A stretch of 64,000 nucleotides of DNA from a bacterium (GTDB lineage Bacteria; Armatimonadota; Fimbriimonadia; Fimbriimonadales; Fimbriimonadaceae), in NCBI GenBank assembly GCA_013823945.1, contig PNMZ01000001.1, positions 62,001 through 126,000 of the forward strand. The letters are read 5' to 3'. Shown piece after piece: positions 17,822 through 62,004 of the stretch (position 1 is the stretch's first letter; each line of letters opens with the position of its first letter). Below the pieces are notes generated by a model that did not search any database, was not told where the DNA came from, and saw only the letters and a list, made by a program, of their open reading frames with translations. The translations under genes and the position numbers were made by a program.

Positions 17822-18757
17822 TTAGTGTCCGAGCGACTCAAGATACCGTTCCGCATCAATTGCCGCCATACACCCTGTCCCTGCCGCAGAAACTGCTTGA
17901 CGATAGACACTATCCGCAACATCTCCCGAAACGAAAACGCCAGGAATCTTTGTTTTCGTCGAATTCGGTTCGTGAGTCAAGTAGCCGACATCATCATGAT
18001 CCAGTACATCAACAAAAAGATCACTCGTTGGCTTGTGACCAATCGCGATAAACACACCATCAATATCCATATCTTTTGTCTCTCCGGTGACTGTGTCTCG
18101 CAAAGTGACCCCACGAAGCTTCTTGCGAGGCTCCAAATCACCCAAGAAATCAATAATCTCCGAATTCCAAATTACCTCAATCTTTGGATTGTCGAGAACG
18201 CGCTGTTGCATCACCTTGCTTGCCCGGAACGAATCGCGCCTATGAATCACAAAAACCTTCTCCGCATGGCGTGTCAAGTAGTTCGCTTCTTCCATCGCCG
18301 TATCTCCACCCCCAACGACAATCACCTGCTTACCTCGGAAAAAGAATCCGTCGCATGTCGCACAAGCACTCACGCCGTATCCACCAAATGTAACTTCACC
18401 CTCCAAGCCGAGCCACTTCGCAGACGCACCCGTTGAAATGATCACCGTCTCCGCTTCCCAAAGTTCATCCTCGCACCAAATCTTCTTCGGCGTGCTGAGC
18501 AAATCAACTTTTGTGACCGTCTTCTGCTCAACCCGAGCACCAAACCGCTCAGCTTGCTCCCGGAACAGTTTCATCATTTCTGGCCCCATCACCCCCTCTG
18601 GAAAACCCGGATAGTTCTCAACGTCGGTCGTAATCATCAGCTGGCCACCCGGCTCAGGACCGGCAAACACGAGGGGACTCAAGTCCGCCCGCGCCGCATA
18701 AAGAGCAGCCGTATACCCCGCCGGCCCAGTGCCAATAATCACAACTCGTTCCGTCAT
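17822..18757 (-). CDS. trxB: Thioredoxin-disulfide reductase
   Basis: The 311-residue flavoenzyme passes electrons from NADPH via FAD to thioredoxin. It has the FAD motif GTGPAGYTAALYAARA, the redox pair in ACATCDG (Cys132 and Cys135), the NADPH motif VGGGDTAMEEA and the terminal FAD segment GVFVSGDVADSVYRQAVSAAGTG. Length is normal. It is divergent from the PAS-GGDEF gene and may supply reducing power to thiol and selenol redoxins, including the one at 60592-61089 (inference). Confidence 0.97.
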   Translation of the reverse strand: MTERVVIIGTGPAGYTAALYAARADLSPLVFAGPEPGGQLMITTDVENYPGFPEGVMGPEMMKLFREQAERFGARVEQKTVTKVDLLSTPKKIWCEDELWEAETVIISTGASAKWLGLEGEVTFGGYGVSACATCDGFFFRGKQVIVVGGGDTAMEEANYLTRHAEKVFVIHRRDSFRASKVMQQRVLDNPKIEVIWNSEIIDFLGDLEPRKKLRGVTLRDTVTGETKDMDIDGVFIAIGHKPTSDLFVDVLDHDDVGYLTHEPNSTKTKIPGVFVSGDVADSVYRQAVSAAGTGCMAAIDAERYLESLGH

Positions 18758-18838
18758 AACTGTTCCAATCAGGTTACCAGCCGTTCAGTTCCGAAACACC
18801 ACCCATCGGCCCATGTCGTGGGCAGTTCAAGAATTTTC

Positions 18839-21751
18839 ATGGACGACTCTGGAGATTCAATAGCATTAAAACCAATAATCCCATCAGTGGAGCCGGAGAA
18901 CATCCAAACCACCGAGTCCAAAAAAATGGGACACCTAACCAGCTTGCGCATTTGCGCGGCTGGACTTGTCATATCACTTTCAACAATCATCGGATCGCTC
19001 ATCTTAGGTTCAGACTCGGTAATTCCAATCATCGCGACAATTGCTTTAGTACCAATATTTATTTACATCTGCTCCCAAGTTAAGCAGTCATATAAGGCTG
19101 CCGCTCACTCAGATTCAAGACTCCAAGAGCTCATCGCTGAAAACGCTGATCTCATCGAGCGCAGTGCCGAATTCCAGCAACAAAACGCTGAACACGAGGA
19201 ACAAGAGACAGAACTCCGCGAAGCCCTGGAAGTCGCCGAAATCCAAAAGGCCATGCAAGAGCACGCCTCTCGCCGGTTCCAATCTCTCTTCGAAGGGCTA
19301 CCAATTGGAGCTACAACATTCGACAACGAAGGCACCATCTTCGAGTGGAACCAAAAAATGACCGAAGTCATGGAAGTCCCTGCCCACTTCGCCATTCTTC
19401 ACCCGCTCGCTAACGCAATCCACTCCGAAGAAAACCCTGAAATTGTCCTCAATATCCTCGACTCCATATTCGTGAAGGGCGAGATGATCGCCTTTAACCA
19501 CACATTCACTTCCAAAGATAAACAGAAAACCATCGCTCTCAAATTCTTCCCTCTCCGAAACAAAGAGGGAGCAATTCTCGGGGGCATCGGGTGTGGAATT
19601 GATGTCACAGAAGAACTCTCAACTCAACTCCAAATCGCCGCCATGGCCGAGCTTCAACGAGCCGTCCTCGATAGCACAGAATACGCGATCATTTGGTCAA
19701 ATCCCCGATGCGAAGTCATTGGAATGAACCGTGCCGCCGAAGAAATACTCGGGTTCTCCGCAGAAGAATGCATCAACAAAAAAAGCCTCGCTGACTTCCA
19801 CCTACCCACCGAAATTTTCTTGCGTAACGTAGAACTCGAAGCGCAAACCGGTGAGAAAATTGACTCAAATATTGAGCTTTTCGAATACCTTTCCCAAAAT
19901 CCCAAAGAAACGGAGTGGCAATACCTCAGAGCTGACGAAACCGTTGTTGACGTTGGTATGAGCATCTCCGCTTTAACCAATCCCCATGGCGAGCTCACCG
20001 GATTTCTCACCGTTGCCAAAGACATAACTGAGCAAAAATCTAACGCAGAACGGTTAAAAATGCTCAGCATGGTGGCCAAAGAATCCATGAATAGTGTCGC
20101 AATTCTCGACGCAAGCGGACATGTCATCTTTACTAATCCCGCATTTGCCCGACTTACCTCATTCGATTCCGAATCAGTCCTCGGAAAAACTCCATTTGAA
20201 TTCCGAACATCTCCTGAAACAAGCGTTGAAACCCTCAGCGAAATCAAAGAAATCATCCGTAAACAGTCCAGCGGACGAACCGAATTGCGTCTCATTCGAC
20301 CGGATGAAACCGAATACTGGTCAAGCATTACCATTTCCCCGGTCAAAGGCGAGAGTGGATTTTGCACCCACATAGTGATCATCGAAGATGACATCACTGA
20401 AAAAAAACAAACTCAGCTGCTCGTCGAAGAATCTGAATCCCGATTCCGAGACGTTGTAGAAGCCGCCGGAGAATACATATGGGAAGTTGACGCTGACTTC
20501 CGATTCACCTATGCCAGCCCAAAAATTGCTCAAGTGCTTGGCTACACCCCCGAGGATGTACTCGGTCACTCTCCCCTCGATTTCGTCAACAAAGACCAAG
20601 TCAAAGAGGTACAAAACCTCATCGCGTCCTCAGTCTTGGATCGAGATCCTGTGACGAATCTCATCCTGCGAACGACCGGAAAATGGGGGCAACAAGTCTG
20701 GCAAAAATTCAACGCCGTCCCGTTCTTCGATTCACAAAACGAACTAAAAGGCTTCCGAGGTACTGGACTCGATATAACTGACCAAAAAGTTGCGGAAGAC
20801 GCCCTTGACGCCGCAAATACACGCGTCAAAAATATTCTCGAAAGCATTAATGACTCATTCTATTCGCTCAACCCATTTAACCAGTTCACTTACATCAACC
20901 AATCCGCTCTCAATACCATCGGTTGTCAATTGGGAGAAATAATCGGAACGGATATTGAAGCGAGTCACTCCGATGCCCACTGGCAGCCGCTTATCCAAAT
21001 CCTAAACGGAGTCCGGCAATCAGGCGAAGCTGATTCAATTGAGCTCTTCAACGCAACCAAAGCAGAATGGTACGACTACCGCGTCTATCCAAACCAAGAC
21101 GGCGGAGTCAGCGTATTCTTCCAAAACATCACCGAACGCAAAGCCATCCAAAAACAACTCGAAACGCAAATGGCTGAAATCAATGAAGCCAATGTCCAAC
21201 TCGAAATCCAACAGTATAAACTCGAAGAGGCCAACCTAAAGCTCCTCAACCTCGCCTCCACAGACGGACTCACCGGTCTCAAAAATCATAAAACCTTCCA
21301 AGAATTCCTCTCCGACAAAATGGAAATGTCCACAATGACCGGAATTCCCATCGGAGTCATCCTCATGGATGTCGATAAGTTCAAATCTTTCAATGATGAC
21401 TTTGGGCACCTCGCCGGAGATGAAGTCCTCAAGGGAGTCGCCCGAACCCTGCAGCAGTGTATAACCGAACCCCACTTCGTCGCTCGCTATGGTGGAGAAG
21501 AATTTGTAATCGTCGGTGTCGGCCTAGATGAAACAGATATGTACTACCTCGCCGATGAATGCCGCCTCGCCCTAGAAGACCAAGACTGGCCAAATCGACA
21601 AGTTACCGCCAGCTTTGGGGTTGCAATGTTCACTTCGGATGTGCCGGATAAAGCAACCCTGATTGATCGCGCCGACCAAGCCCTCTACGCCTCAAAAGAA
21701 GCAGGACGCAACCGGGTCACTCAGTACGAAAACCTCAAAAAAGCTGCATAG
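18839..21751 (+). CDS. Membrane-bound multi-PAS diguanylate cyclase
   Basis: The ~970-residue protein makes cyclic di-GMP from two GTP in response to signals sensed by PAS domains. Order: two membrane helices (about residues 36-58 and 62-82), a charged coiled coil (~88-140), five PAS-like units with linking PAC segments (to ~760, for example AEEILGFSAEECINK, SPKIAQVLGYTPEDVLG), a second coiled coil, then a C-terminal GGDEF domain. The active-site motif is GGEEF at 885-889. The inhibitory RxxD site expected just before it reads TEPH, so product inhibition is probably absent. The frame is open far upstream into antisense trxB. ATG 18839 is the most likely start, and ATG 18926, directly before the membrane helices, is the alternative. 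Confidence 0.9.
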   Translation: MDDSGDSIALKPIIPSVEPENIQTTESKKMGHLTSLRICAAGLVISLSTIIGSLILGSDSVIPIIATIALVPIFIYICSQVKQSYKAAAHSDSRLQELIAENADLIERSAEFQQQNAEHEEQETELREALEVAEIQKAMQEHASRRFQSLFEGLPIGATTFDNEGTIFEWNQKMTEVMEVPAHFAILHPLANAIHSEENPEIVLNILDSIFVKGEMIAFNHTFTSKDKQKTIALKFFPLRNKEGAILGGIGCGIDVTEELSTQLQIAAMAELQRAVLDSTEYAIIWSNPRCEVIGMNRAAEEILGFSAEECINKKSLADFHLPTEIFLRNVELEAQTGEKIDSNIELFEYLSQNPKETEWQYLRADETVVDVGMSISALTNPHGELTGFLTVAKDITEQKSNAERLKMLSMVAKESMNSVAILDASGHVIFTNPAFARLTSFDSESVLGKTPFEFRTSPETSVETLSEIKEIIRKQSSGRTELRLIRPDETEYWSSITISPVKGESGFCTHIVIIEDDITEKKQTQLLVEESESRFRDVVEAAGEYIWEVDADFRFTYASPKIAQVLGYTPEDVLGHSPLDFVNKDQVKEVQNLIASSVLDRDPVTNLILRTTGKWGQQVWQKFNAVPFFDSQNELKGFRGTGLDITDQKVAEDALDAANTRVKNILESINDSFYSLNPFNQFTYINQSALNTIGCQLGEIIGTDIEASHSDAHWQPLIQILNGVRQSGEADSIELFNATKAEWYDYRVYPNQDGGVSVFFQNITERKAIQKQLETQMAEINEANVQLEIQQYKLEEANLKLLNLASTDGLTGLKNHKTFQEFLSDKMEMSTMTGIPIGVILMDVDKFKSFNDDFGHLAGDEVLKGVARTLQQCITEPHFVARYGGEEFVIVGVGLDETDMYYLADECRLALEDQDWPNRQVTASFGVAMFTSDVPDKATLIDRADQALYASKEAGRNRVTQYENLKKAA

Positions 21752-59175: not shown

Positions 59176-60192
59176 TCAAACGAGGTTTTCCAATTTCCCT
59201 CGCAAACTGTCCGCCCTCTGCCTCGCCGCAACTTCCGCGCTCTGAGTGCCAAAAACTTCCATTTCGGTGATCCACGCATCTACCTCCCGATGGTTCATCT
59301 CAAATCCGGAAAGATCCATCGCCGCTGCCCAACGCACATAGCCCAGAACAAGGAGAGCATCGCGCATCGTCATCTGCGCCGACATCACAGCAAATTCCGC
59401 CGCGCTCATTGCCTTCTCCCGAATCACATCTCGTGAAACCTCATCTCTCGCCAATCGCTCTTCTCGGATCAAATGTTGACAAGCCCCCACAAACTCACTA
59501 TCACTAATTTTGGTGGCTGAGACTTGAACAAAAGAAGCAACTCCTCGCGATGACTCACCAAATAAACCCCGCGTCGTCACACCCATGTGATGCATGGACT
59601 GAATCATCCTATTGAGTCGTCCCTGGGTTGCCAATCCCACCAAATGAAACAGTGCCGAACGTCGTTTTCCTCCGCCAAGATTGGTCGGACTCGCAGTCAA
59701 AAAACCTAACTCCGCAAGGTATTGAAAAGGAAGTTTCCGTCCCAAGTTCTCGGCAATCCGTTCCCCCTCCCGAACCGCTGTCTGAATAGACCAACCCGCA
59801 CTTACTGCCTGTATACGCAAGTGATCTTCCTCGTTGACCATGATGCTAACCAGTCTCTGTTCATCGAGTAACACCATACGACCCGGCGCCGAATGCTCAA
59901 ACTCCGGCGAAATCAGCCGCGCCCCCAAAAGATAATCTCGCTCGGCCTCCGTCACGTTGGATTGCGTTGAAAGGGCCATCCCATCCACTGCAGATCTCAC
60001 TCGATGGGCAACTTCAACCAAATCCGCATTCTCAGCCCGATGGGGATAGAAAAATCCCACCAAGTTCCGCGCAAGTCGATACCGACTCGATATAACAATA
60101 TCCCCCTCCGGCGCATCCGCCGCAAGCCAAGCCGGCGGTTGCATCGAGCGCAACACCATCTTTTTCCAAGCTTCCGAAGAACCGCCCGACAT
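59176..60192 (-). CDS. mcsB: McsB-like protein arginine kinase, catalytic Cys replaced by Ser
   Basis: The 338-residue ATP:guanido phosphotransferase has SSRYRLARNL, NEEDHLRIQ, LGFLTASPTNLGGGKRRSALFHL and TRGLFGESSRG. In known McsB the middle motif reads CPTNLGTG; here Ser replaces the conserved Cys and G-K replaces T-G. Arginine kinases of this type mark proteins for ClpCP. The mcsA, ctsR and clpC genes usually found beside it are absent. The frame and other motifs are intact, so it is likely active or a specialised form rather than a pseudogene. Confidence 0.88.
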   Translation of the reverse strand: MSGGSSEAWKKMVLRSMQPPAWLAADAPEGDIVISSRYRLARNLVGFFYPHRAENADLVEVAHRVRSAVDGMALSTQSNVTEAERDYLLGARLISPEFEHSAPGRMVLLDEQRLVSIMVNEEDHLRIQAVSAGWSIQTAVREGERIAENLGRKLPFQYLAELGFLTASPTNLGGGKRRSALFHLVGLATQGRLNRMIQSMHHMGVTTRGLFGESSRGVASFVQVSATKISDSEFVGACQHLIREERLARDEVSRDVIREKAMSAAEFAVMSAQMTMRDALLVLGYVRWAAAMDLSGFEMNHREVDAWITEMEVFGTQSAEVAARQRADSLRGKLENLV

Positions 60193-60591: not shown

Positions 60592-61089
60592 TTACACTTC
60601 GCCAAGTGCCAGACCAATCGCATCAACCGATGCCGTATCCCCTGCATCCCTGTCACGATGTTCCCACGTCACCTCCCCTGCTGAATTCAAAACAAAAGTT
60701 CCCGAGAGCTGCAACGGATCACCAACCGGTACCCCCACCCCATGCTTGCCCGCTCGAACCCCCGCTCGCCAAACATTTGGCCCAAAAAGCTGAACTAAAT
60801 TCCCCCGCTTCAATCCAAAAACGTCATACAGCCGCTTATCCGGATCACAGATAAATCTATGGGGAGATTCCATCTTCACCCGAAATTTCTCCGCTTCATC
60901 CGGCGAAGCCATGCAAACAAAAACGATATTCCAATCTGCTTTCTCACGTAGCACCGCCACGTGTTCCCGACAAAACGTTCATCCAAAATGGCGAAGAAAA
61001 ACCAACCCCACTGGTTTTTCAACGGCAATACTCCACAAAGAGACGCTCTCGCCTGAACTCAAAAGAACATCACGATTGTCAAAATTCAC
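60592..61089 (-). CDS. Peroxiredoxin-like selenoprotein (AhpC/TSA_2, SelU-like) with in-frame TGA
   Basis: A frame read through one TGA (60981-60979) gives a 165-residue thioredoxin-fold redoxin. Before the TGA come VEKPVGLVFLRHFG, then U37, then TFCREHVAVLRE. In the family the motif is FLRHFG-C-x-F-C-REHVA, so TGA stands exactly at the first redox Cys, giving U-x-x-C with Cys40. After it come RFICDPDKRLYDVFGL and LSGTFVLNSAGEVTWEHRD, as usual. Immediately after the TGA lies an 8-bp hairpin with a GGU loop, matching the bacterial SECIS pattern. The start is GTG 61089, 9 bases after the rpoD stop. A caller that treats TGA as stop would begin at GTG 60960 and lose the active site. A sequencing error (TGC to TGA) is the main alternative. 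Confidence 0.78.
60945..60963 (-). promoter_or_regulatory. Predicted bacterial SECIS hairpin
   Basis: CACGTGGCGGTGCTACGTG folds into an 8-bp stem (one G-U pair) with loop GGU. It begins 15 bases after the TGA, and the loop is 23 bases after it. Known bacterial SECIS elements have a loop with a G in the first positions at ~16-37 bases from the UGA. Confidence 0.7.
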
Positions 61090-61098
61090 GTCTAACTT

Positions 61099-62004
61099 CT
61101 ACGCAAGCAAAACTCCCGAATCACACTGTTTGAGCTTTTTCAATCCCCGTTGCTCAATCTGCCGCACTCGCTCCCGGGTGATCCGGAGTTGCTTCGCAAC
61201 TTCCTCAAGGGTCAATTGGAGTCCATCTCTCAAACCATAGCGTAGGTTAAGTACCTCGCGCTCTCGGTCATCAAGAATCTCCATCACCTCGCGCACCGTT
61301 TGACGCATGTGAGCCCGCTCCATCGCCACTCCCCCATGATCATCATCCGGAATAACATCCTGCAATGTCGAATCGTCTGTCCCTGTTAGTGGAGACTCTA
61401 ACGACATCGCATCCGGAACCATTTTTAGCATCTCTGCTACTTTGCCAACTTCAATATCCGCCGCCCGAGCAACTTCCTCCGCCGATGGATCACGTCCAAG
61501 CTCCATGGAGAGACGAGCGGCAATACGGCGCACTCTCATCGACCCTTCCACAACATGTACGGGCACCCGAATCAAGCGTGACTGATCACTAATCGCTCGA
61601 CTGATCGCCTGACGGATCCACCACGTCGCATAAGTAGAAAATCGAAACCCTTTATCCGAATCAAACTTCTCAACCGCCCGAATCAGCCCGATATTCCCCT
61701 CTTGGATCAAATCATCCAAACTCATCCCCCGCCCCGAGTATTTCTTCGCAATATTGACTACCAATCGGTAGTTCGCTTCAACCAATTTCCGACGACTGTC
61801 TTGGCACCCTTCGCCAATCGCCTGGGCCAAAACGGCCTCTTGTTCAGCAGTAAGCAAAGGGGTACGCCCCACCGTAGCCAACCACAGTTTCAAACTGTCG
61901 TCAACTTGCCCCCGGTCACCAGCATCGCCAGTCCCTCCATGTCCAACTGCAAATCCATTTGAAGACGCGCTCGTGCCAGTAAATTCACCATGAACCACTG
62001 CCAC
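61099..62004 (-). CDS. rpoD: Sigma-70 family RNA polymerase sigma factor, RpoD/SigA type
   Basis: The 301-residue sigma factor has region 1.2 ([19 protein letters not shown]), region 2 ([31 protein letters not shown]), region 3 (RVPVHVVEG...) and region 4 ([22 protein letters not shown]). Region 1.1 is missing. The place directly behind dnaG, as in the macromolecular synthesis operon, supports the housekeeping factor. The length and missing 1.1 leave a group 2 factor possible. The GTG start at 62004 lacks a strong ribosome site. Confidence 0.88.

Follow-up and report, generated by a model that had tools for sequence, protein, structure and literature searches.

Peroxiredoxin-like selenoproteins with a UxxC motif are already established in bacteria, and a SelL-related family is already curated by NCBI (NF040769, SelL_rel_redox). 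A 2026 review of prokaryotic selenoprotein families lists in its Table 1 the peroxiredoxin-like UxxC selenoproteins together with the peroxiredoxin-like family cd02970, whose motif is UxxS (PMC13188914); both belong to the same fold group as the redoxin described here and carry selenocysteine (Sec) at the first motif position. NF040769 does not appear in the table of that review, and Armatimonadota are not named in the paper. SelL proteins are selenoproteins known from fish, from invertebrates and from marine bacteria (PMC2397514, PMC2398784, PMC3316567), the marine bacterial members having been reported in PMC2397514 and PMC2398784, and they contain two Sec residues close together within one redox motif (PMC3316567). 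A eukaryotic relative, human prostamide/PGF synthase (PDB 9us9, 9usa), has its C44 and C47 aligned with residues U37 and C40 of the redoxin, but it is only about 23% identical, is a Cys-only protein and acts on a eukaryotic lipid substrate.

We examined a locus in a 64-kb stretch of DNA from an Armatimonadota genome, all of which is referred to as the window. We consider it very probable that this locus encodes a UxxC selenoprotein redoxin related to SelL, in which Sec37, inserted under the direction of SelB and an mRNA hairpin, would attack the substrate, Cys40 would resolve the intermediate and a thioredoxin-type donor would reduce the enzyme.

The redoxin gene and its in-frame TGA

The gene occupies positions 60592–61089 on the minus strand and consists of 165 codons and a TAA, with one TGA that would be read through. 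When positions 61089–60592 are translated with TGA as U, the product is VNFDNRDVLLSSGESVSLWSIAVEKPVGLVFLRHFG-U-TFCREHVAVLREK...LALGEV, and the only TGA is codon 37 (60979–60981, minus strand), the proposed Sec codon. The TGT codon at 60970–60972 (minus strand) encodes Cys40, the proposed resolving residue, according to the translation and the homologue alignment. GTG 61089 is the probable start codon; it is shared by the nearest relative, Uphvl-Ar1, and lies 9 nt past the stop of a sigma-factor gene in the same frame. The ORF caller reports instead a 122-aa ORF from GTG 60960 (60592–60960, minus strand) without the redox motif, which bears out the warning of an earlier note on this DNA that automated calling would lose the active site.

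The read-through protein matched Pfam AhpC-TSA_2 with 52.3 bits (cut-off 27). Against NF040769 it scored 140.5 bits (cut-off 120) when Sec was replaced by Cys. The latter alignment extends over residues 6–158 of the protein and positions 6–169 of the 173 in the profile, and thus covers both sides of the TGA. The earlier note had described a match that continues without shift for about 165 codons across a TGA at the first redox Cys, and both parts of this description hold. Its assignment to AhpC-TSA_2 also stands, and in place of its SelU-related label we use the SelL-related one, this being the nearest curated family. Both families, including SelU of fish, fall within the broad AhpC-TSA_2 group, and the bacterial model matched here is the curated SelL-related one. 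The match to NF040769 is whole-length, above the curated cut-off and has the motif at the same position, the difference being that the first Cys is Sec here, as it is in 15 of the 201 genomes of the phylum that were sampled. The motif of SelL itself is UxxU. Although SelL shares with the redoxin a peroxiredoxin-like character, Sec in the redox motif and the existence of bacterial members, it has two Sec residues, whereas in the redoxin a single Sec precedes a Cys (UxxC); strict identity with SelL was rejected because the second motif position is TGT.

We compared the 36 codons preceding the TGA with those of the 87%-identical relative and obtained a dN of 0.12 and a dS of 0.83; of the 22 differences, 14 fell at third codon positions. 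Judged from this pattern, the 36 codons are under purifying selection, and the region dropped by the ORF caller is therefore protein-coding. Among 54 long ORFs in the window, 20 end in TGA, and beyond it the next stop follows after a median of 15 codons, which indicates that the codon otherwise works as a normal stop there. A second apparent read-through, an ORF at 17825–18436 on the plus strand that ends in TGA and is followed by 1104 open codons, did not qualify as a selenoprotein, since no Pfam family matched the upstream ORF. The segment 17825–21751 (plus strand) contains a chance 203-aa ORF ending in TGA, in frame with a PAS/GGDEF protein at 18554–21751, which is the real gene.

Selenocysteine machinery and a hairpin downstream of the TGA

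The genome that contains the window is 99.8% complete. Whole-genome searches for the Sec machinery returned selA (433 bits, cut-off 268), selB (350 bits, cut-off 242), selD (355 bits, cut-off 125) and tRNA-Sec (73 bits), the last with the anticodon TCA (UCA) according to ARAGORN. The absence of these genes was what the earlier note had said would speak against a selenoprotein, and all four were found; by this gene content, the organism is able to make selenocysteine. The selD gene (L018, G000:C1:818864-819790) has its own in-frame TGA at the catalytic position (...KCAGUASKLGP...), and this context fits the UxxK motif of Sec-containing selenophosphate synthetase (PMC13188914). Together with the TGA of the redoxin, it brings the genome to at least two candidate selenoproteins.

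A hairpin scan 3′ of the UGA identified a bSECIS-like hairpin, CACGUGGC-GGU-GCUACGUG, at 60945–60963 on the minus strand. Its stem is 8 bp long, the 3-nt loop GGU starts with G and lies 23 nt from the UGA, and the energy is −10.0 kcal/mol. These values lie within the published limits for a bacterial SECIS, namely a loop of 3–9 nt, a stem of 4–16 bp, G in the first two loop positions, a distance of 16–37 nt from UGA to loop and an MFE of at most −7.5 (PMC13188914 Fig. 2). A fixed hairpin scan of the homologues gave a median of −5.1 kcal/mol for the Sec versions versus 0 kcal/mol for the Cys versions (p = 8e-4). The hairpins of the Sec versions were also stronger than those of synonymous recodings of the same peptide (combined p = 1e-6), which was not so for the Cys versions (0.94). 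Eight other Sec genes have a CGC-AGUU-GCG core in common, in which AGCU replaces AGUU in one case, and their loop lies 25–28 nt past the UGA. Covariation of the stem was modest, with 2 of 7 stem pairs changed on both sides and the observed score reached by 7 of 500 shuffles. In 4 of the 15 Sec versions the strict scan detected no unbulged bSECIS hairpin, and one of these four (L026) has a hairpin with a one-base bulge. Among the Rfam SECIS families, the best match at this locus, SECIS_4, scored 17 bits and remained below the gathering score of 38.

Proposed selenocysteine and cysteine forms in Armatimonadota

Homologues are encoded in 62 of the 201 Armatimonadota genomes sampled, and the codon was read in 65 loci. 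Of these, 64 belong to the 62 genomes, from which a few weaker second matches were omitted, and the remaining one lies on a Planctomycetaceae contig. Because the Uphvl-Ar1 record and the G006 locus represent one gene, it was counted once. The codon-37 column contained TGA in 15 loci and a Cys codon, TGC or TGT, in all of the other 50, which is the alternation of TGA and Cys codons that the earlier note had proposed to look for. The same TGA in the same column is found in 14 genomes besides that of the window, among them the nearest relative at 87% identity, Armatimonadetes bacterium Uphvl-Ar1 (Armatimonadota), and all remaining homologues have Cys. Both selA and tRNA-Sec are present in all 15 genomes with the Sec form, whereas the 46 Cys-only genomes have selA in 23 cases and tRNA-Sec in 22 (Fisher p = 4e-4 for selA and 2e-4 for tRNA-Sec, uncorrected for kinship). 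A wider search added 2 candidate genomes with one TGA inside a match, beyond the 15 of 201. In this phylum the form is therefore not rare; the earlier note had supposed rarity for SelU-like selenoproteins in bacteria. Its remark that no case was known from this phylum agrees with our finding no earlier report.

On the tree, the Sec/Cys label changes 13 times, and at least 8 of these changes are forced by well-supported branches, so that the two forms have replaced each other repeatedly. With 13 changes, Sec clusters on the tree no better than shuffled labels do, and we therefore make no claim on a single origin of Sec.

These results bear on three readings of the locus that do not involve selenium. 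A TGA is one base away from TGC or TGT, and half of the relatives with the Cys form have no Sec machinery, so that a sequencing error or a decayed gene, with a mutated or miscalled Cys codon and a dead protein, might be considered. However, the identical TGA occurs in a separately sequenced genome that is 87% identical and in 13 further genomes, there is purifying selection on either side of it, and both the Sec machinery and the hairpin are present; we regard this explanation as extremely improbable. We give just as little credence to a functional short protein that begins at GTG 60960, where the mechanical 122-aa ORF starts, with the upstream frame as a relic, because such a protein would lack the whole redox motif, in which residue 37 is invariant among the 65 homologues, and because the upstream codons are under purifying selection. 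UGA can also be read by near-cognate tRNAs, and a selenium-free protein could in principle arise by reassignment or read-through of TGA as Trp or Cys. This is very unlikely, given that TGA ends 20 of the 54 long ORFs with only short run-ons, that the aligned residue is Cys and never Trp, and that every genome with the TGA form also has selA and tRNA-Sec. Sec insertion and a U-x-x-C centre, as the earlier note had proposed, are supported at the sequence level by the Sec machinery, the TGA/Cys column, the co-occurrence and the bSECIS hairpin.

Proposed redox centre, sigma-70 neighbour and place among known selenoproteins

The AlphaFold model of the protein (pLDDT 94, pTM 0.91) has a helix at residues 38–48, directly after residue 37. 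The closest solved structure by both profile and fold is human prostamide/PGF synthase (profile 1.8e-15; Foldseek TM-score 0.76), and the next matches are mostly peroxiredoxins (PrxQ/Bcp, AhpE), with ResA also among them. Residue 37 is invariant, being Sec or Cys in 65 of 65 homologues, whereas a related pair of genomes, L033 (G046) and L054 (G021), has Ala at residue 40, giving the motifs UxxA and CxxA. The loss of the resolving Cys with the first position kept suggests a one-Cys mechanism in these two. Given that residue 37 is invariant and residue 40 can be Ala, the attack most likely comes from residue 37 and the resolution from Cys40.

The redoxin would thus be an oxidoreductase of the SelL-related type (AhpC-TSA_2, thioredoxin/peroxiredoxin fold) with the redox centre U37-T-F-C40. 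The hairpin 3′ of the UGA would be recognised by SelB with Sec-tRNA-Sec, and selenocysteine would be inserted at the UGA in place of termination. The fold and the human relative suggest that the selenolate of Sec37, located before the first long helix, would attack a peroxide or disulfide substrate. By analogy with the same fold and with prostamide/PGF synthase, Cys40 would resolve the intermediate to a selenenylsulfide, which a thioredoxin-type donor would then reduce. A selenoprotein whose main job is thiol-disulfide exchange, as in thioredoxin, and not peroxide or endoperoxide reduction is a real but less favoured possibility. The CxxC-like motif at the thioredoxin position and the presence of ResA among the profile and fold matches are in line with it. 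On the other hand, prostamide/PGF synthase is the top match and most of the next ones are peroxiredoxins, and the two relatives that lack Cys40 but keep residue 37 fit a one-Cys peroxidase more readily than an enzyme of dithiol exchange. For the UxxC selenoprotein as we read it, the substrate may be a peroxide, an endoperoxide or a disulfide, and the electron donor would presumably be of the thioredoxin type.

The gene directly before the redoxin shares its strand and frame, is separated from it by 9 nt and encodes a 301-aa sigma-70 factor (61099–62004, minus strand). The earlier note had placed the redoxin directly behind rpoD; the sigma-70 neighbour is confirmed, but the name rpoD is doubtful, since another gene of the genome is the best RpoD match (330 bits versus 287 for the adjacent gene). 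The adjacent gene is thus probably not the primary rpoD, as far as these scores indicate. In 28 of the 65 loci, for Sec as well as for Cys forms, the gene immediately upstream on the same strand encodes a sigma-70 factor; this count is a lower bound, since some loci have only a few hundred upstream bases. Linked loci include L021, L022, L027–L029, L032, L035–L037 and others. In Uphvl-Ar1, the gene order dnaG, sigma, redoxin, VOC protein and McsB is kept. In the window, the McsB-like protein arginine kinase (59176–60192, minus strand) scores below the NCBIfam cut-offs and is therefore a divergent member. Because the pair is kept in 28 loci irrespective of the form, the redoxin might be functionally tied to the sigma-70 factor, sensing or reversing oxidation of sigma or RNA polymerase and thereby adjusting transcription to selenium status; we consider this idea speculative and rather unlikely.

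Overall, the case for this small antioxidant-type redoxin as a selenoprotein is convincing, but it is of an ordinary bacterial kind. In the literature searched, which includes few subscription papers, we found no report of a selenoprotein from Armatimonadetes or Fimbriimonas, and this is seemingly the first description of a Sec-containing SelL-related redoxin from Armatimonadota. What appears to be new is the occurrence in this phylum, the at least eight Sec/Cys swaps and the frequent linkage to sigma-70. The analysis restores the active site to a gene which standard ORF calling shortens, and extends the range of lineages having a Sec-containing SelL-related redoxin to Armatimonadota. Close Sec and Cys versions that were repeatedly swapped within one phylum offer a natural set for the gain and loss of selenocysteine at one catalytic position.
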